A stretch of 64,000 bases of DNA from Pontederia crassipes (taxonomy: Eukaryota > Streptophyta > Magnoliopsida > Commelinales > Pontederiaceae): assembly GCA_030549335.1 (NCBI GenBank), contig CM060187.1, positions 53,154,203 to 53,218,202 on the forward strand, written 5' to 3'. A program made the translations under genes and the position numbers. Shown here in pieces: positions 23,876 through 43,800 of the stretch. The notes below the pieces were generated by a model. The model was not told where the DNA came from, searched no databases, and was given only the letters and a program-made list of their open reading frames with translations. How positions within the stretch are numbered: position 1 is the stretch's first letter; the number at the start of each line of letters is the position of its first letter.

Positions 23876-23972
<97 letters not shown>
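23876..23972. repeat. (TTA)n microsatellite, about 32 units
   Basis: Uninterrupted TTA trinucleotides for roughly 95 bp, about 80 bp upstream of the GC-rich leader of the FAR1-related gene. It is a likely polymorphic marker in or near that promoter. Confidence 0.95.
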
Positions 23973-28499: not shown

Positions 28500-28900
28500 T
28501 CGTGCTAGGGCGGAGCGTACAATATCCTATCATGTATAAAGATGTGCGGCTGCGCTACTCATACTAGAGGACGCGTTTTGGTAAAATCATGCGGGCCGAT
28601 GTTCAAAACGGATAATATCCTACGTAAGTGTAAAGGTGTTATATATGGTATTAGAGTCACTTCGCGTGGACCTCTGTGCATGGTGGGGTACGATCACTTA
28701 ACGAGGACGTTGAGTCTTCCGAGAGGAAAAAGTGTATGTAGTATGTCTTGATTTAGTCTCACATGCATAAATTATGAGAAATATGCTGGGTATATATGAG
28801 AATATGACTTTAAACGCGTTTTGATAAAATCGTGCATGTCGAGGTTCAAAGCGGCCTATGCAAGTGCATGGTGCTGCGCTCTTTGATATATTTCTTACTG
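28500..28900 (+). mobile_element. LTR-retrotransposon fossil fragment, low confidence
   Basis: TGGTATTAGAGTC at 28646-28658 resembles the primer-binding site complementary to initiator tRNA-Met that follows a plant 5' LTR. The upstream part has a phrase (ACGCGTTTTGGTAAAATC) that recurs in diverged form at about 28816 (ACGCGTTTTGATAAAATC). No coding domain is present. I read it as a short, old remnant. Confidence 0.3.
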
Positions 28901-29427
28901 AAAGTATCCCAGTGATAAGGAGTCGGACCAAATAATTCCATTGGGTTGTAGTTAGGCATGTGTACATTTGCTTTATACATGTAAGCATTTGCCATGCGTA
29001 CGTATTTAACGTTAGAAATCTATCTAACGAAGATGGTAGTCCGTATATTTTATCCATTCTGGTTCTAGTTACGGCTTTTGGACCTTTTTTCATTACCTAT
29101 TTCTTCTTTTTCTTATTTTGTTTGCAACAGTACTAAATAGATGATGATATCTTGTTTGCAAGAAGTCAGTGAGACTCGTTTATGCAAATATCAGGATGGG
29201 CATAGACAATTTAATCCCACATGAACTGTTTGTTCAAAATATTTTTATTAATAAGTTTAATTCCAAGCGCACGATCGCCGAGCCCGGTAACGCAGGCTTG
29301 TGACCCAAGTGGGGGCTTGAAGTGGTGGAATGGTTTGCTTCAGCTGCTGGTCCGGGCTGCGGCGTGCTCTATTTGGCCCGCCCGTTTCCAAGTCGGGAGT
29401 TGGACCGTATGGGCTGGGCGAAGGCTC
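28901..29427. other. Lead-in to the tandem array
   Basis: AT-rich to about 29260, then a GC-rich unique segment (29265-29427) that runs straight into the first repeat unit. It is not part of the repeated unit. It may be the unamplified left part of the founder sequence. Confidence 0.45.
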
Positions 29428-32400
29428 GACTCTCATTCGGGCCTTAGAGAGGAGGGCAATGCGCGAGGCTGGCTTCACAGAGCAGCGACTACTTCTCGCT
29501 TCCGTCGGTGGAAGGATAACGGGCCAATGCACGCGCGATCCACAATGGGCCAGTTAGCCTGGTTCTAATCAGATCAATATTTTTTTGTGGTTTGGTGCTT
29601 TTTTTGGATACGGGACCTTGTTTTTTATATCTCTCTTCCCAAAGTTTCAGATTTTTTTATTCTAGTTCTAGATAATATTTCTGTGATAAACTGATTTATT
29701 TAATTGTAAGGAAAACCGTATATTGACTCTCATTCGGGCCTTAGAGAGGAGGGCAATGCGCGAGGCTGGCTTCACAGAGCAGCGACTACTTCTCGCTTCC
29801 GTCGGTGGAAGGATAACGGGCCAATGCACGCGCGATCCACAATGGGCCAGTTAGCCTGGTTCTAATCAGATCAATATTTTTTTGTGGTTTGGTGCTTTTT
29901 TTGGATACGGGACCTTGTTTTTTATATCTCTCTTCGCAAAGTTTCAGATTTTTTTATTCTAGTTCTAGATAATATTTCTGTGATAAACTGATTTATTTAA
30001 TTGTAAGGAAAACCGTATATTGACTCTCATTCGGGCCTTAGAGAGGAGGGCAATGCGCGAGGCTGGCTTCACAGAGCAGCGACTACTTCCCGCTTCCGTC
30101 GGTGGAAGGATAACGGGCCAATGCACGCGCGGTCCACAATGGGCCAGTTAGCCTGGTTCTAATCAGATCACCATTTTTTTGTGGTTTGGTGTTTTTTTTG
30201 GATACGGGACCTTGTTTTTTATATCTCTCTTCGCAAAGTTTCAGATTTTTTTATTCTAGTTCTAGATAATATTTCTGTGATAAACTGATTTATTTAATTG
30301 TAAGGAAAACCGTATATTGACTCTCATTCGGGCCTTAGAGAGGAGGGCAATGCATGAGGCTGGCTTCACAGAGCAGCGACTACTTCCCGCTTCCATCGGT
30401 GGAAGGATAACGGGCCAATGCACGCGCGGTCCACAATGGGCCAGTTAGCCTGGTTCTAATCAGACCACCATTTTTTTGTGGTTTGGTGTTTTTTTTTTTG
30501 GATACGGGACCTTGTTTTTTATCTCTCTCTTCGCAAAGTTTCAGATTTTTTTATTCTAGTTCTAGATAATATTTCTGTGATAAACTGATTTATTTAATTG
30601 TAAGGAAAACCGTATATTGACTCTCATTCGGGCCTTAGAGAGGAGGGCAATGCGCGAGGCTGGCTTCACAGAGCAGCGACTACTTCCCGCTTCCGTCGGT
30701 GGAAGGATAACGGGCCAATGCACGCGCGGTCCACAATGGGCCAGTTAGCCTGGTTCTAATCAGATCATCATTTTTTTGTGGTTCGGTGCTTTTTTTGGAT
30801 ACGGGACCTTGTTTTTTATATCTCTCTTCGCAAAGTTTCAGATTTTTTTATTCTAGTTCTAGATAATATTTCTGTGATAAACTGATTTATTTAATTGTAA
30901 GGAAAACCGTATATTGACTCTCATTCGGGCCTTAGAGAGGAGGGCAATGCATGAGGCTGGCTTCACAAAGCAGCGACTACTTCCCGCTTCCGTCGGTGGA
31001 AGGATAACGGGCCAATGCACGCGCGGTCCACAATGGGCCAGTTAGCCTGGTTCTAATCAGACCACCATTTTTTTGTGGTTTGGTGTTTTTTTTTGGATAC
31101 GGGACCTTGTTTTTTATCTCTCTCTTCGCAAAGTTTCAGATTTTTTTATTCTAGTTCTAGATAATATTTCTGTAATAAACTGATTTATTTAATTGTAAGG
31201 AAAACCGTATATTGACTCTCATTCGGGCCTTAGAGAGGAGGGCAATGCGTGAGGCTGGCTTCACAGAGCAGCGACTACTTCCCGCTTCCATCGGTGGAAG
31301 GATACGGGACCACAATGGGCCAGTTAGCCTGGTTCTAATCAAATCACCATTTTTTTGTGGTTTGGTGCTTTTTTTTGGATACGGGACCTTGTTTTTTATA
31401 TCTCTCTTCGCAAAGTTTCAGATTTTTTTATTCTAGTTCTAGATAATATTTCTGTGATAAACTGATTTATTTAATTGTAAGGAAAACCGTATATTGACTC
31501 TCATTCGGGCCTTAGAGAGGAGGGCAATGCGCGAGGCTGGCTTCACAGAGCAGCGACTACTTCCCGCTTCCGTCGGTGGAAGGATAACGGGCCAATGCAC
31601 GCGCGGTCCACAATGGGCCAGTTAGCCTGGTTCTAATCAGATCACCATTTTTTTGTGGTTTGGTGTTTTTTTTGGATACGGGACCTTGTTTTTTATATCT
31701 CTCTTCGCAAAGTTTCAGATTTTTTTATTCTAGTTCTAGATAATATTTCTGTGATAAACTGATTTATTTAATTGTAAGGAAAACCGTATATTGACTCTCA
31801 TTCGGGCCTTAGAGAGGAGGGCAATGCATGAGGCTGGCTTCACAGAGCAGCGACTACTTCCCGCTTCCATCGGTGGAAGGATAACGGGCCAATGCACGCG
31901 CGGTCCACAATGGGCCAGTTAGCCTGGTTCTAATCAGACCACCATTTTTTTGTGGTTTGGTGTTTTTTTTTTTGGATACGGGACCTTGTTTTTTATCTCT
32001 CTCTTCGCAAAGTTTCAGATTTTTTTATTCTAGTTCTAGATAATATTTCTGTGATAAACTGATTTATTTAATTGTAAGGAAAACCGTATATTGACTCTCA
32101 TTCGGGCCTTAGAGAGGAGGGCAATGCGCGAGGCTGGCTTCACAGAGCAGCGACTACTTCCCGCTTCCGTCGGTGGAAGGATAACGGGCCAATGCACGCG
32201 CGGTCCACAATGGGCCAGTTAGCCTGGTTCTAATCAGATCACCATTTTTTTGTGGTTCGGTGCTTTTTTTGGATACGGGACCTTGTTTTTTATATCTCTC
32301 TTCGCAAAGTTTCGGATTTTTTTATTCTAGTTCTAGATAATATTTCTGTGATAAACTGATTTATTTAATTGTAAGGAAAACCGTATATTGACTCTCATTC

Positions 32401-35400
32401 GGGCCTTAGAGAGGAGGGCAATGCATGAGGCTGGCTTCACAAAGCAGCGACTACTTCCCGCTTCCGTCGGTGGAAGGATAACGGGCCAATGCACGCGCGG
32501 TCCACAATGGGCCAGTTAGCCTGGTTCTAATCAGACCACCATTTTTTTGTGGTTTGGTGTTTTTTTTTGGATACGGGACCTTGTTTTTTATCTCTCTCTT
32601 CGCAAAGTTTCAGATTTTTTTATTCTAGTTCTAGATAATATTTCTGTAATAAACTGATTTATTTAATTGTAAGGAAAACCGTATATTGACTCTCATTCGG
32701 GCCTTAGAGAGGAGGGCAATGCGTGAGGCTGGCTTCACAGAGCAGCGACTACTTCCCGCTTCCATCGGTGGAAGGATACGGGACCACAATGGGCCAGTTA
32801 GCCTGGTTCTAATCAAATCACCATTTTTTTGTGGTTTGGTGCTTTTTTTTGGATACGGGACCTTGTTTTTTATATCTCTCTTCGCAAAGTTTCAGATTTT
32901 TTTATTCTAGTTCTAGATAATATTTCTGTGATAAACTGATTTATTTAATTGTAAGGAAAACCGTATATTGACTCTCATTCGGGCCTTAGAGAGGAGGGCA
33001 ATGCGCGAGGCTGGCTTCACAGAGCAGCGACTACTTCCCGCTTCCGTCGGTGGAAGGATAACGGGCCAATGCACGCGCGGTCCACAATGGGCCAGTTAGC
33101 CTGGTTCTAATCAGATCACCATTTTTTTGTGGTTCGGTGCTTTTTTTGGATACGGGACCTTGTTTTTTATATCTCTCTTCGCAAAGTTTCAGATTTTTTT
33201 ATTCTAGTTCTAGATAATATTTCTGTGATAAACTGATTTATTTAATTGTAAGGAAAACCGTATATTGACTCTCATTCGGGCCTTAGAGAGGAGGGCAATG
33301 CATGAGGCTGGCTTCACAAAGCAGCGACTACTTCCCGCTTCCATCGGTGGAAGGATAACGGGCCAATGCACGCGCGGTCCACAATGGGCCAGTTAGCCTG
33401 GTTCTAATCAGACCACCATTTTTTTGTGGTTTGGTGTTTTTTTTTTGGATACGGGACCTTGTTTTTAATCTCTCTCTTCGCAAAGTTTCAGATTTTTTTA
33501 TTCTAGTTCTAGATAATATTTCTGTGATAAACTGATTTATTTAATTGTAAGGAAAACCGTATATTGACTCTCATTCGGGCCTTAGAGAGGAGGGCAATGC
33601 ATGAGGCTGGCTTCACAGAGCAGCGACTACTTCCCGCTTCCGTCGGTGGAAGGATAACGGGCCAATGCACGCGCGGTCCACAATGGGCCAGTTAGCCTGA
33701 TTCTAATCAGACCATCATTTTTTTGTGGTTTGGTGCTTTTTTTTTTTGGATACGGGACCTTGTTTTTTATATCTCTCTTTGCAAAGTTTCAGATTTTTTT
33801 ATTCTAGTTCTAGATAATATTTCTGTGATAAACTGATTTATTTAATTGTAAGGAAAACCGTATATTGACTCTCATTCGGGCCTTAGAGAGGAGGGCAATG
33901 CATGAGGCTGGCTTCACAGAGCAGCGACTACTTCCCGCTTCCGTCGGTGGAAGGATAACGGGCCAATGCACGCGCGGTCCACAATGGGCCAGTTAGCCTG
34001 GTTCTAATCAGACCACCATTTTTTTGTGGTTTGGTGTTTTTTTTGGATACGGGACCTTGTTTTTTATCTCTCTCTTCGCAAAGTTTCAGATTTTTTTATT
34101 CTAGTTCTAGATAATATTTCTGTAATAAACTGATTTATTTAATTGTAAGGAAAACCGTATATTGACTCTCATTCGGGCCTTAGAGAGGAGGGCAATGCGT
34201 GAGGCTGGCTTCACAGAGCAGCGACTACTTCCCGCTTCCATCGGTGGAAGGATACGGGACCACAATGGGCCAGTTAGCCTGGTTCTAATCAGATCACCAT
34301 TTTTTTGTGGTTTGGTGCTTTTTTTTGGATACGGGACCTTGTTTTTTATATCTCTCTTCGCAAAGTTTCAGATTTTTTTATTCTAGTTCTAGATAATATT
34401 TCTGTGATAAACTGATTTATTTAATTGTAAGGAAAACCGTATATTGACTCTCATTCGGGCCTTAGAGAGGAGGGCAATGCATGAGGCTGGCTTCACAGAG
34501 CAGCGACTACTTCCCGCTTCCGTCGGTGGAAGGATAACGGGCCAATGCACGCGCGGTCCACAATGGGCCAGTTAGCCTGGTTCTAATCAGACCACCATTT
34601 TTTTGTGGTTTGGTGTTTTTTTTTTGATACGGGACCTTGTTTTTTATCTCTCTCTTCGCAAAGTTTCAGATTTTTTATTCTAGTTCTAGATAATATTTCT
34701 GTAATAAACTGATTTATTTAATTGTAAGGAAAACCGTATATTGACTCTCATTCGGGCCTTAGAGAGGAGGGCAATGCGTGAGGCTGGCTTCACAGAGCAG
34801 CGACTACTTCCCGCTTCCGTCGGTGGAAGGATAACGGGCCAATGCACGCGCGGTCCACAATGGGCCAGTTAGCTTGGTTCTAATCAGACCACCATTTTTT
34901 TGTGGTTTGGTGCTTTTTTTTTGGATACGGGACCTTGTTTTTTATATCTATCTTCGCAAAGTTTCAGATTTTTTATTCTAGTTCTAGATAATATTTCTGT
35001 GATAAACTGATTTATTTAATTGTAAGAAAAACCGTATATTGACTCTCATTCGGGCCTTAGAGAGGAGGGCAATGCATGAGGCTGGCTTCACAGAGCAGCG
35101 ACTACTTCCCGCTTCCATCGGTGGAAGGATAACGGGCCAATGCACGCGCGGTCCACAATGGGCCAGTTAGCCTGGTTCTAATCAGACCACCATTTTTTTG
35201 TGGTTTGGTGTTTTTTTGGATACGGGACCTTGTTTTTTATCTCTCTTCGCAAAGTTTCAGATTTTTTTATTCTAGTTCTAGATAATATTTCTGTAATAAA
35301 CTGATTTATTTAATTGTAAGGAAAACCGTATATTGACTCTCATTCGGGCCTTAGAGAGGAGGGCAATGCGTGAGGCTGGCTTCACAGAGCAGCGACTACT

Positions 35401-36227
35401 TCCCGCTTCCGTCGGTGGAAGGATAACGGGCCAATGCACGCGCGGTCCACAATGGGCCAGTTAGCCTGGTTCTAATCAGACCACCATTTTTTTGTGGTTT
35501 GGTGCTTTTTTTTTGGATACGGGACCTTGTTTTTTATATCTCTCTTCGTAAAGTTTCAGATTTTTTATTCTAGTTCTAGATAATATTTCTGTGATAAACT
35601 GATTTATTTAATTGTAAGGAAAACCGTATATTGACTCTCATTCGGGCCTTAGAGAGGAGGGCAATGCATGAGGCTGGCTTCACAGAGCAGCGACTACTTC
35701 CCGCTTCCGTCGGTGGAAGGATAACGGGCCAATGCACGCGCGGTCCACAATGGGCCAGTTAGCCTGGTTCTAATCAGACCACCATTTTTTTGTGGTTTGG
35801 TGCTTTTTTTTTGGATACGGGACCTTTTTTTTATCTCTCTCTTCGCAAAGTTTCAGATTTTTTTATTCTAGTTCTAGATAATATTTCTGTGATAAACTGA
35901 TTTATTTAATTGTAAGGAAAACCGTATATTGACTCTCATTCGGGCTTTAGAGAGGAGGGCAATGCATGAGGCTGGCTTCACAGAGCAGCGACTACTTCCC
36001 GCTTCCGTCGGTGGAAGGATAACGGACCAATGCACGCGCGGTCCACAATGGGCCAGTTAGCCTGATTCTAATCAGACCATCATTTTTTTGTGGTTTGGTG
36101 CTTTTTTTTTATACGGGACCTTGTTTTTTATCTCTCTCTTCGCAAAGTTTCAGATTTTTTTATTCTAGTTCTAGATAATATTTCTGTGATAAACTGATTT
36201 ATTTAATTGTAAGGAAAACCGTATATT
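29428..36227. repeat. Satellite-like tandem array, 23 units of about 297 bp with higher-order structure
   Basis: Using the anchor GACTCTCATTCGGG, units start at 29428, 29725, 30022, 30319, 30619, 30916, 31214, 31496, 31793, 32093, 32390, 32688, 32970, 33267, 33566, 33867, 34164, 34446, 34743, 35041, 35335, 35633 and 35931. Most are 294-301 bp; three (31214, 32688, 34164) are 282 bp because of the same internal deletion. Each unit has a GC-rich half and an AT-rich half (poly-T run, TTCTAGTTCTAGATAATA, ATTTATTTAATTGTAAGG). Variants (GCGCGAGG, GCATGAGG, GCGTGAGG) recur in order, giving a five-unit super-repeat of 1474 bp and, at the right end, a two-unit period. Short ORFs inside are repeat artefacts. 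I cannot name the family. Confidence 0.97.
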
Positions 36228-36864
36228 GGTTCAAATTTTATTTTCTGAAGAGACAACACATCCACATGTAAAATAAATCGTGTAGTAAAATTCCAGTGTG
36301 CACGTAAAAGATTATAGAGTTTTTACTCGTTCTCATATTTTTACCCTCGATCTACTTCTTTTATTAATTATATGTATGACCACGTAGCACATGCATGCGT
36401 GACAGCATTAACTATTGAATCGATGCATGCAGACTGTTGCTTGGTTGCTGCATGAGAAAAAGTTGACCATTTCCTCTCATCGTGACATGATATCTACAAA
36501 GAGAGTGATCAACTGCCTGATTGAGAGAGGGAGAGAGACAAGGAAGCACCGAGAAACAGATGGATAGGGGATCGACCGATCGAGGGAGTGGAAAGACATT
36601 GGGATCCACTCGTCAGAACCCTACGACCTCCCAATCCATCGACCACCTTCCAGCATTTAATGGCGTGCTTAATTAATCCCATCTCCCCAACCCTATAGAA
36701 GACCTTCTTCATGACATGAGATGTTGTAGTTAGCACGAAAAAGAAAGATCGATCTACCCGCCAAGAAAAGCACAGTACTACTGCGCGTACTTGCTTTACC
36801 CACTCATACATCGTCGTCATCATCATCCAGTCCATCGATGCAGCATCTGTGAGCCGAAACGCCC
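36228..36864. promoter_or_regulatory. Upstream region of the small gene at 36865
   Basis: Unique sequence beginning right after the array. It includes GA-rich tracts and ATCGATC words near 36560-36590. Promoter function is inferred from position; no specific motif is claimed. Confidence 0.35.
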
Positions 36865-37371
36865 ATGGCCTCCATTAGAGCCAAGCTCTCGTACCAGAGG
36901 CTAAAGAAGCTTCCTCCGGAGAGTACTGATATTCATGAACGGGAGGAGACCATTCATGAAGCAAAAGGAGCAGTACCGTATCATCAGGAGGCTGCAGAGC
37001 CGGCGCCCAGCAGGAGGAGGACGAGAAGCAGCGGCTGGCTGAGGCTTACGGCCGCCGGCCGCGGCGGCGACGGACGGCGGTGGCGGAGGCCGAGGGTCCG
37101 AGTGGCGGGGCTTCTGAGGAGGAAGGTGAGGCTGGTGAGGTGTGCGGTGGCCAAGGTGGTGAGGAGGTTGAAGGAAGGGAGGCCTTACTTGGGGGAGCTG
37201 TTTGCAGGCAACTACATGTTCATGCAGGTGAGCCCTTCGCCAACCATGGGCTACGTGGACAAGTACTCCTTCCAGCCTGCTCATGGATTTGCCCACCACC
37301 ACCACCAGCAGAAGCAGCTGCAGCATGGTGCCACCTGCAGGCCGCTCAGCATCCCCAGGGTTGCTGCTTGA
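36865..37371 (+). CDS. Uncharacterised plant protein with a GELFAGNYMFMQV motif
   Basis: Intronless ORF of 168 aa. The N terminus begins MASIRAKLSYQRLKKLPPES. A basic, arginine-rich middle (about residues 48-105) includes GLLRRKVRLVRCAVAKVVRR and continues to LKEGRPYLGELFAGNYMFMQ (about 102-121). The C terminus has a His/Gln run and ends PLSIPRVAA. From memory, small plant proteins of unknown function share a similar basic helix followed by the FAGNYMFMQV motif, so I treat it as a real gene of a plant-specific family with no assigned role. The basic stretch could aid nuclear or membrane association, which is inference. It lies 640 bp from the end of the satellite array. Confidence 0.75.
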   Translation: MASIRAKLSYQRLKKLPPESTDIHEREETIHEAKGAVPYHQEAAEPAPSRRRTRSSGWLRLTAAGRGGDGRRWRRPRVRVAGLLRRKVRLVRCAVAKVVRRLKEGRPYLGELFAGNYMFMQVSPSPTMGYVDKYSFQPAHGFAHHHHQQKQLQHGATCRPLSIPRVAA

Positions 37372-40889: not shown

Positions 40890-43800
40890 GAGGATCATGT
40901 ACAAGTGTGTGCTCTCATGAAGAGAGCGGCCACTAAAACCCACTCCCGAAGAACAAAAAGAGATGTGGTGTATAATACTCTCACCTAACATCGCTCCCCC
41001 CAAAAAAGACTGTCTCCAAACCCTCTCGTGATATTGGGTACCCACCAGTTGTCGGTATCCCCTCTCTCTTTCCACAAACCAAATGTGTGCTCTCACGAAG
41101 AGAGCGGCCACTAACCCACTCCCGAAGAACAAAAGAGATGTGATGTATAATACTCTCACCTAACATCGCTCCCCACAAAAAAGACTCTGTCGCCAAACCC
41201 TCTCGTGAGTCGTGATACTAGGCACCCACCAATTGTGGTTGGTATCCCCCTCTCTTTCCACAAACCTTACTCTCCTTGATTTATTTGTTACACAAGGAGA
41301 AACATTCAACCTTCATTTCCATAAGCAATTCCATATGCAAGAAAACCATCTAAGAAATATAGTGTGAAGAGCTAAACTTTACAGATGAAGCCAAGCTTTC
41401 GAACTATTGTCATAGGAAGATAAACTTTTGCCAAAAGTGTAATAAAGAAAACTGAAACGGCATCATACATAAACTGAGAAGTATACTACAACAACAACAA
41501 CAAAGCCTTATCCCACTAGGTGGGGTCGGCTACATGGATCATACGACATCATTCCGCTCTGTAAACTGAGAAGTATAAGAAATATAATAGAGATGGAAGA
41601 AAATCAATTCTATCATATAACATTTAACTTCCACTCTGTTCATGAAGCAAGTGTCCAAAAGAAAGACCTCACAAAAAAAAATTCTGAAAAGGTTCAAGAT
41701 TTTGTACTATTTTGGGTGTGCCAATAACAAAAAGAGTGGAGAAAGTATAAAAATATTCTAAGCTACTAAAACACACCTGATAACTGAAACCATTATACGG
41801 TGGAATATATCCCATGGGTAAGGCTCCAAAAAGAGAAGACTGTTGCATTGAATTGGCATTAGGAATGCTAGAGGCCTGAGATTGTGCTTTTTGTGCCCTT
41901 CGGGCTTGTCTTTCTTTCTCTGTGTCAGCCCACTTAACAACCAGGGGTACACTTGAACCCTGCATGCAGAAAATGACCATAATCATAAGCAATTGAAATC
42001 CAATCAACATGACATTACCAACAAAATGAAACTTCAAATTATTGTTAGAAAGATAGTGACTGATTATGCATCTTTGTTCTTGTGGGGCATAATGTTTAGT
42101 TAGAAAATAGTGGAATATCCAATACCTCTTCAAATACTCCCAAACATGTTTACCTGCACTTTTTTAAATGGACACCACACATAGTTTATAAAAACTACAA
42201 TTGCAACTCAATTGAAATGATTTCCCACATTTTCCTTGAAAATTACCATAAAAAAATTGTCCTCAACCATTCAATTTTTCTTATTATGTGGGAACTTCTG
42301 CCTAAACGCTCTGCTCATATAAAATGTTCAAACGTCATCATCTCATCAGAACTGCCTCAAGAGGTGGAACATTAATACATCACCTTCTATTGGGTTAGTT
42401 AGGGCACATTAGGCTTCTGAATATCAAGGTTCATAGAAAAATTGTCTTAAAGGTAGTCTTAAAGGTAGTTAAACATATTTTGGAAATTGAGCATTAGTGG
42501 GATAAGGCTTTGTCACATGGCGTCGTATGATCCATGTAGCCGACCCCACCTAGTGGGATAAGGCTTTGTTGTTGTTGTTGTTAGGACACATTAGGCTTCT
42601 GAATATCAAGGTTCATAGAAAAATTTGATTAGCTAGGGCGCTTTGTTAGGATTTTCATAATGCAATTGAAATATTAAGAAAGGACTAAGGAACATAATCT
42701 GAAAGATCATATAAGACGAACAAAGACAGACCTCCATCCTGTGTATGCCATTTAAGGCATCAATAGCTGCCGTAGCTTCTTCCTTTGTTTCATACTTCAG
42801 GAATGCACAACCTGCTGAAATTAGAGAAAACATGGCAACAAGTTATGTAAAGGGAATAATTTGGGACAAACATGCTTCTGTAGACAAAAAACTACTTCAC
42901 TTTTCAGTGTGATAAGTCCCTATCAGCATTTTAACCTACCTTTGCTTGTTGGTTGAGAACCTCTCAAGATTTGTAAGTCCTTAATATTACCATGTTTTGA
43001 GAATACTGAAGAAACTTCAGCTTCAGATATATTCTTCGGAAGCATTCCTATGAAAAGCTTGTGTTCTGGGCATAAATAAGATCCATGCATATGTTAAAAG
43101 GAATAAATAGGTCCTTGGAGGAAAGAAATGAAAATTTCTAGTTGTATATGACTGTCATCACAGAATAAGAAATGATGTAGCCTGTACCTAGTCTTTCAAT
43201 CTCGCCATCAGCATATTTTACTTGCAATGGACTAGAAGCCTGAGGTAAACATTGGTAAAGACCTCCGTTAGATTTTTGTGAGCACACTTCTGATGAGAAC
43301 CTTGCCTAACACTATGATAGAACCAAGGAGTGGATGAACAAAAAAAGGTAACAACTTGTATTATGATATATTTTGAAGCTAACAGTGACGATTATTGCAC
43401 TACAAGCTACAAACTGAAGGAACTATGGGAGATACATATTGATTGCCTCAAGATCTTCATGGACCAATGATGCCACAATTGACTAGCTAGGCAGTAACGA
43501 AGACTTAAAGAACACATCAGTATCATTTAAGAACGTTATTGTTGTAAATCGTGCAAATTAATCTATCAAAATCACATGGCACTTAGGAGAACCAAAACAA
43601 TTTGTGGAAAATGCAGATTCGTTGCAGTAACTGCAAATTTTTTCGTCATATCAAAAGAAAAAAAATGATAAGAAAAACTAATAAGTCACACTTTTTTATA
43701 ATAAAAAAGTAAATTGAAAGACGATCATATTAACTCCGCCTATGTTTTATAGCCGGTCCCAAGCCCGGATAAAGGAGGAGGGTTGTGTTAGGCCCCGACA

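Follow-up and report, generated by a model that had tools for sequence, protein, structure and literature searches.

In higher-order repeats of the alpha-satellite type, several units together form a block that is itself repeated. Among repeats related to small RNA genes, the 4.5SH RNA genes of rodents derive from the 5' part of 7SL RNA. They originated from 7SL through the B1 SINE and are present in hundreds of tandem copies, and their unit is a 4-5 kb repeat containing a gene with promoter boxes A and B, according to the available sections of PMC10137851. The PcP190 satellite of frogs has a unit of about 190 bp, a 120-bp part of which resembles 5S rDNA (excerpt of PMC11675491), and other 5S-derived satellites have been reported from Hoplias and from a B chromosome of Plantago lagopus, going by titles cited in PMC12692304. 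In rice, break repair has been named as the source of tandem duplications (excerpt of PMC7407515, which has Vaughn and Bennetzen 2014 among its references), and fill-in by Pol alpha-primase leads to tandem duplications at breaks with 3' overhangs (excerpt of PMC8355091). A survey of intermediate-size RNAs in maize listed 5 SRP RNAs and described tandem repeats for other RNAs in the sections available (PMC6172812). No 7SL-derived plant array was found in the available sections of the open-access literature searched on 7SL/SRP RNA repeats.

Here, we describe a tandem array made of 7SL gene sequence in Pontederia crassipes. The window, meaning the whole 64-kb stretch of DNA analyzed, is C5:53154203-53218202 in a genome of 1,132,208,429 bases and 43 contigs. 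The original prediction placed 23 copies of a 297-bp unit at 29428-36227, and Tandem Repeats Finder agreed, reporting one array with a period of 297 and 23.0 copies (29428-36228; 95% matches, score 12411). The nature of the unit had been overlooked: it consists of 7SL gene sequence, namely the 3' half, followed by the downstream flank of that gene. The gene, its upstream elements and the array are as follows.

29214..29224, forward strand: USE-like element ATCCCACATGA at -63, agreeing with the consensus at 9 of 11 positions
29246..29254, forward strand: TATA-like element (TATTAATAA) with ATAA at -26, from the upstream regions of 14 genes
29277..29584, forward strand: complete 7SL RNA gene, full-length match to RF01855, apparent parent of the array
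29277..29427, forward strand: 5' half of the 7SL gene, single copy, outside the repeat (the first unit starts at 29428)
29428..36227, forward strand: array of 23 units, in each of which about 157 bp from the 3' half of 7SL are followed by about 140 bp of flank

The Rfam family Plant_SRP (RF01855, gathering cut-off 105 bits) matched 29277-29584 in full, covering model positions 1-305 of 305 with 203 bits and an E-value of 1.5e-58. This match extends 151 bases upstream of the array, and unit 1 is the 3' half of the complete gene. The unit begins at gene position 152, directly past the GAAG loop of helix 6, and helix 8 lies within the RNA part of each unit. Units 2-23 lack the 7SL promoter and 5' half. 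At a looser threshold, 22 partial matches to RF01855 followed the full one at 36.3-49.9 bits. In a genome-wide scan, stretches of the array scored 43-58 bits; with at most 58.1 bits, the array units stay below the family cut-off of 105.

A USE and a TATA element make up the plant 7SL promoter. The genome scan scored 28 of 4653 first-look candidates and gave 14 full-length matches above the cut-off, a number that may be incomplete; the window gene ranks 13th of these 14 by score. Among the 13 others, 12 have a USE-like stretch (7 to 10 of 11 positions) at -63 to -65 and 12 have ATAA or TATA at -27 to -30, while the gene on C18 lacks both elements. Judged by its full-length match and the spacing of its USE-like and TATA-like elements, 29277-29584 is a 7SL gene. 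No USE/TATA pair was found in units 2-23. The best USE-like score in the array was 8 of 11, for ATCTCTCTTCG, a stretch that lacks the CCCACA core. Because 8 of 11 falls within the range of the genes (7 to 10), the argument lies in this absent core and not in the score.

For the comparison of units, the array was split at the unit start, which yielded 23 units whose lengths agree with the original prediction. The larger-scale features and the right edge of the array are listed below.

30022..31495, forward strand: five-unit block 1, 1474 bp
31496..32969, forward strand: five-unit block 2, 1474 bp, with 2 differences from block 1
32970..34445, forward strand: block 3, 1476 bp
31214..31495, forward strand: 282-bp variant unit (u07), with GGATACGGGACC in place of a longer stretch of the other units
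36228..36260, forward strand: right edge, unique sequence GGTTCAAATTTTATTTTC

As had been claimed, the series of unit lengths 297, 300, 297, 298 and 282 bp occurs twice, in two blocks of 1474 bp each, and these blocks differ solely at 30768 and 30840. The next stretch (32970-34445) is indeed 1476 bp long and ends in the 282-bp variant; in the matrix of unit differences its units 13, 14, 16 and 17 are close to units 8, 9, 11 and 12, and unit 15 is unlike unit 10. Over all 23 units, the mean difference between units five apart was 5.44, compared to a shuffle mean of 8.19, and none of 10,000 shuffles was as low. The five-unit period is not due to chance. Within units 3-17, the mean difference was 2.0 at lag 5 and 9.0 at lag 1. 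The lag-5 and block data give good support to the proposal that unequal exchange acted at two scales, one of 297 bp and one of 1474 bp. The two-unit alternation described for the right end was found for GCAT and GCGT, which alternate in units 16-22, but did not extend to whole units, since a two-unit period in units 16-23 was not significant (1179 of 10,000 shuffles were as low). The first two units had also been called the most divergent. Ranking by mean difference did not bear this out, as u23 came first (11.2), followed by u01 (10.6), u12 and u07 (both 10.4) and then u19 and u02 (9.6).

The 282-bp variant recurs at 32688-32969 and 34164-34445, thus exactly every five units (u07, u12 and u17), which places its origin earlier than the block duplications. 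It may have arisen by a single short template switch and later spread with the block, since the 12-mer GGATACGGGACC also occurs in the flank part of 21 of the 23 units (it is absent there in u18 and u23). Given 2 differences over 1474 bases, the last block duplication would be very roughly 50,000 years old at a substitution rate of 1.3e-8 per site per year.

The claim that the array sits between ordinary genes held, as frames or exons with FAR1/MULE, RRM and MatE domains were recognized in the window.

near 19.9 kb: MatE exon
25.2-27.6 kb: frame with a FAR1/MULE domain
36865-37371: short frame with no Pfam match
near 45.8 kb: RRM exon

The 7SL and U6 loci occur in matching order on C5 and C6, which, together with the appearance of the genes, suggests a polyploid monocot genome. 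The homeologous stretch of C6 is collinear with the window, and most long blocks are 90-97% identical (a few are 78-87%), among alignment rows above 60 bits that start outside the array or within its first two units. At C6:16363673-16364259, a 5'-truncated 7SL gene is followed by one partial second copy. This copy starts and joins at other bases than those of the C5 array. The sequence after it is almost matched by the right-edge sequence GGTTCAAATTTTATTTTC. In a tree, both C6 copies grouped apart from all C5 units, although weakly (support 68/87; 76% of 200 bootstrap trees). The differing breakpoints and this weakly supported grouping speak against shared ancestry of the partial C6 copy and the C5 array; the C6 copy is likely independent of the array.

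We also asked how often such duplications occur at the 13 other full-length 7SL loci. These loci (42,994 bases) were compared with themselves, and self-matches of at least 40 bp and 80% identity were listed. Under a strict rule for tandem duplication (50 bp or more, 95% identity or more and a gap no larger than 100), recent duplications of 98.7-99.8% identity were found at 3 of the 13 loci, with none at the other 10. Each of the three extends downstream from a start that lies within the 3' half of the gene or at its end.

C5_38a, gene position 170-634: duplication of 465 bp, 99.8% identical
C6_21, gene position 277-952: duplication of 676 bp, 99.7% identical, both differences within a 9-base overlap
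C6_32a, gene position 305-380: duplication of 76 bp, 98.7% identical

Templated filler is a hallmark of polymerase-theta end joining. The join at C5_38a holds 25 nt of filler, which is GAGGGCACCGCGT twice minus its first letter and copies the left edge of the duplicated piece; repeated slippage could be an alternative source. C6_21 was joined at an imperfect 9-nt overlap and C6_32a at a T-rich 10-nt overlap. C5_38a and C6_32a are homeologs by place, and their breakpoints differ. The C6_32a duplication lies in a T-run, where slippage may suffice. The C18 locus was excluded from the count, as its downstream duplicated stretch (81%) encloses a sequence resembling a primer-binding site and belongs to a large TRIM-like family.

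Under the strict rule, U6 control loci (20 loci, 38,720 bases) gave 2 events, none touching the gene, and other control DNA gave 2 events in 140,900 bases. The U6 loci were picked by hand and comprise 21 of 48 listed U6 matches, leaving out 4 matches at C11 26.6 Mb, 4 at C12 64.1 Mb and lower-ranking matches; the other control DNA was non-random and included the homeologous copy of the window and neighborhoods on C3, C4 and C12. The event rate around 7SL genes was about 3 times the control rate. At the control rate, 0.046 left breakpoints would be expected in the 160-bp 3' zone of the 13 genes, and 3 or more would have a P of 1.6e-5, with both the strict rule and the 160-bp zone having been chosen after inspection of the data. 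The difference in numbers, 3 of 13 compared to 0 of 20 U6 loci, was borderline (one-sided Fisher P of about 0.05, by hand). With the rule relaxed to 40 bp or more, 70% identity and a gap of up to 150, one of the 20 U6 loci (L056) showed a whole-gene tandem duplication of 184 bp and 93.5% identity, which is older than the 7SL ones; with this locus counted, the difference is not significant. In L062 and L063, two other U6 loci, the 3' end of the gene carries a TRIM-like element.

It is the position of the breakpoints, not the number of events, that carries the argument for recurrence. With the window gene and its homeolog included, one-sided duplication is seen at 5 of 15 7SL loci. This small, post hoc sample hints that 7SL genes are prone to one-sided duplication. 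We can offer only tentatively, and with more doubt than confidence, the broader idea that 7SL genes are duplication hot spots of fixed direction, with recurring breaks within the 3' half or at the gene's 3' end and duplication of the downstream stretch, and with the 23-unit array as a runaway case; the whole-gene duplication that the relaxed control revealed at 1 of 20 U6 loci makes this idea slightly less probable. Pol III termination, fork conflict, RNA-DNA hybrids or retroelement integration at the 3' end could drive such events. Breakage at a hairpin formed by the 7SL gene in single-stranded DNA was not supported, as the DNA of the window gene folded no better than shuffled sequences (z = -0.93; 17 of 100 folded as well). 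Should the recurrence hold in more genomes, 7SL genes would offer a natural setting in which to study DNA breakage and duplication by Pol III genes, and a class of 3'-half 7SL fragments would be accounted for.

For the array itself, we consider it probable that end joining created a tandem duplication in a redundant 7SL gene and that unequal crossing-over then turned it into a young, locus-private satellite. The left break would have fallen within the gene at position 152 and the right break about 140 bp past the gene end. At the first join, 1 base is common to the two parent sequences, which by itself does not identify a repair pathway. The two-copy duplications at three other 7SL loci, one of them with templated filler, are simpler forms of a similar event and speak for this origin. 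The promoterless 3' half and its flank would then have grown to 23 copies through unequal crossing-over in steps of one unit and of five units. We infer this break-and-join origin and order of steps, along with units that do nothing beyond promoting exchange. The array is probably functionless by-product DNA.

Were the array instead a working gene cluster, its units would be transcribed, and their helix-8 hairpins would serve as binding sites of SRP54, as a decoy or as a reserve for dosage. In every unit the RNA part is followed by a T-run, a possible Pol III terminator, but the units after the first have no USE/TATA pair, and their scores in two scans (36-50 and 43-58 bits) stay below the cut-off of 105; some units could perhaps be transcribed from outside. 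The helix-8 region is variable at 3 of 44 sites, slightly below the rest. The RNA half as a whole is as variable as the flank, and selection is therefore not evident: variable positions within the array number 16 of 157 for the RNA half and 10 of 123 for the flank, and the fixed differences from the first C6 copy number 11 of 132 and 7 of 109, respectively (T-run columns omitted in both cases). On these counts, the RNA half shows no excess conservation that would point to a functional array. Most of the changes seem to be transitions, as judged by eye, and shortening of a helix-5 strand has spread to 3 of the 23 units. Predicted folding keeps the usual inner stem of helix 8 in 12 of the 23 units, but alters helix 8 in the other 11, those with GCAT, which lack this stem. 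In predicted pairings, the 3' half of the parent binds its own 5' half at -120.0 kcal/mol. Of the 22 other units, 18 have a 3' half that would bind that 5' half better (-125.8 to -138.6 kcal/mol), u02 gives the same value of -120.0, and the three units of 282 bp are slightly worse at -118.6 to -119.8 kcal/mol. Since its own 3' half pairs worse than those of most units, the parent gene is probably decaying at its 3' end, with most units keeping the older form. Such decay would fit a redundant gene and would argue against units kept for function. A working cluster is thus quite unlikely in our view.

The original prediction compared the array to centromeric satellites. A centromere-type or heterochromatic satellite, present here as a small outlying array, would agree with the head-to-tail arrangement, the higher-order repeats with their multi-unit periodicity and the near-identical blocks, but not with the distribution of the unit: matches to the flank half came from 23 places within the array and from two copies (three matched pieces) at the C6 locus, counts that are lower bounds, and neither the flank half nor other arrays of the unit or flank turned up elsewhere in the genome within that search, so the likeness does not extend to the abundance or several arrays of a satellite. 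The unit had no match among plasmids. The position of the array, at 53.18 Mb of a 60.17-Mb chromosome in distal, genic DNA collinear with the homeolog, also argues against a centromeric satellite. This reading is already largely refuted and we regard it as very improbable. We judge just as poorly a tandem repeat borne by a transposon, for example inside an LTR element or as a 7SL-derived SINE. A small LTR-like (TRIM-like) insertion, absent from the homeolog, does lie directly upstream at about 28509-28949, and a member of its family abuts the C18 7SL gene; the array, however, runs from the 7SL gene at its left border to unique collinear DNA at its right border, and no further copies of these borders were found elsewhere. 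The flank is not dispersed within what was searched, and the units lack the 5' part of 7SL; both points also argue against a SINE of the Alu/B1 type, which has the 5' domain of 7SL, an internal promoter and dispersed copies. Misassembly could have produced the copy number or the exact 1474-bp repeat, as the copy number comes from one assembly and blocks 1 and 2 differ at 2 of 1474 bases. That 19 of the 23 units are distinct in sequence, that no N occurs anywhere in the 64-kb window and that the homeolog and three other 7SL loci (in the same assembly) carry related smaller duplications make such an artefact unlikely.

End-joining duplication followed by unequal crossing-over would make this locus a satellite at an early stage, one that remains linked to its parent gene and has an almost single-copy counterpart on the homeologous chromosome. 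A single genome then records the course from one duplication to a higher-order array. The process is ordinary; 7SL as its source is new, as far as found in the literature searched.

The 7SL duplications resemble those described for the joining of broken ends in being short and tandem, and some of those described have microhomology; the sections available of these papers treat a general process and contain no recurrence in one RNA family with a fixed direction (PMC7407515, PMC8355091). Like alpha-satellite-like higher-order repeats, the array repeats blocks of several units, but it is less than 7 kb long, occupies one locus, and does not imply a centromeric nature. The 4.5SH genes are likewise tandem and 7SL-derived, in contrast with an array unit of 297 bp and no promoter, compared to 4-5 kb with promoters in the part of the 4.5SH description available. 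In composition, the array is like the 5S rDNA-derived satellites, which, in the excerpts available, also consist of a Pol III RNA gene region and spacer amplified in tandem. The array combines RNA-gene sequence and spacer in its unit as a small-RNA-gene-derived satellite does, and differs from the 5S-derived satellites in that its source is 7SL, it contains the 3' half alone, its parent is still joined to it, and it consists of 23 copies at one locus.

The three 282-bp variant units of the array (window 31214-31495, 32688-32969 and 34164-34445) contain the flank 12-mer GGATACGGGACC within the RNA part as well. Its presence there is likely due to a single template switch that is common to the three units. 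Tandem duplications were found at other 7SL and U6 loci, as listed below.

C3:2311104-2311573 (7SL locus L044, 1104-1573), tandem repeat with a 156-bp period
C5:38760984-38761008 (7SL locus L046, 7984-8008), 25-base filler in the join of a 465-bp tandem duplication
C9:25856336-25856704 (U6 locus L056, 937-1305), tandem duplication of the whole U6 gene

The 25-base filler is made up of two copies of the duplicated segment's left edge. The U6 duplication is 184 bp, with copies that are 93.5% identical and separated by 1 base, and the 156-bp-period repeat (99.4% identical) lies ~2.4 kb downstream of a 7SL gene other than the one in the window.

A type-P1 twister ribozyme match from Rfam (68.2 bits; cut-off, 67.2) at window 43727-43786 borders a MITE-like element, which is repeated within the window and also on C6. 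Another match, at 30-89 of the C18 7SL locus (L022), scored under the Rfam cut-off. The window also contains a perfect (ATT)32 microsatellite at 23877-23972.

Members of a TRIM-like family, ~420 bp long with two direct repeats of ~160-175 bp each, were found beside 7SL and U6 genes. Those that adjoin the 3' end of a gene occur in both orientations.

Window 28509-28949, upstream of the window 7SL gene
L022 1073-1496, adjoining the C18 7SL gene at its 3' end
L062 519-936, adjoining the 3' end of a U6 gene
L063 549-959, adjoining the 3' end of a U6 gene

The window member is diverged (70-75%) and has no counterpart at the homeolog. Among the U6 control loci, 2 of 20 had an adjoining member. The family is large, with 2497 first-look candidates, 40 of which were scored. 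According to PMC10886601, no TRIM with 7SL-derived sequence had been found. Since nesting is frequent in this family, and L062 has a second, inverted copy that overlaps or adjoins the U6 match on its opposite side, the U6-like pieces beside TRIM-like copies may be parts of composite repeats.
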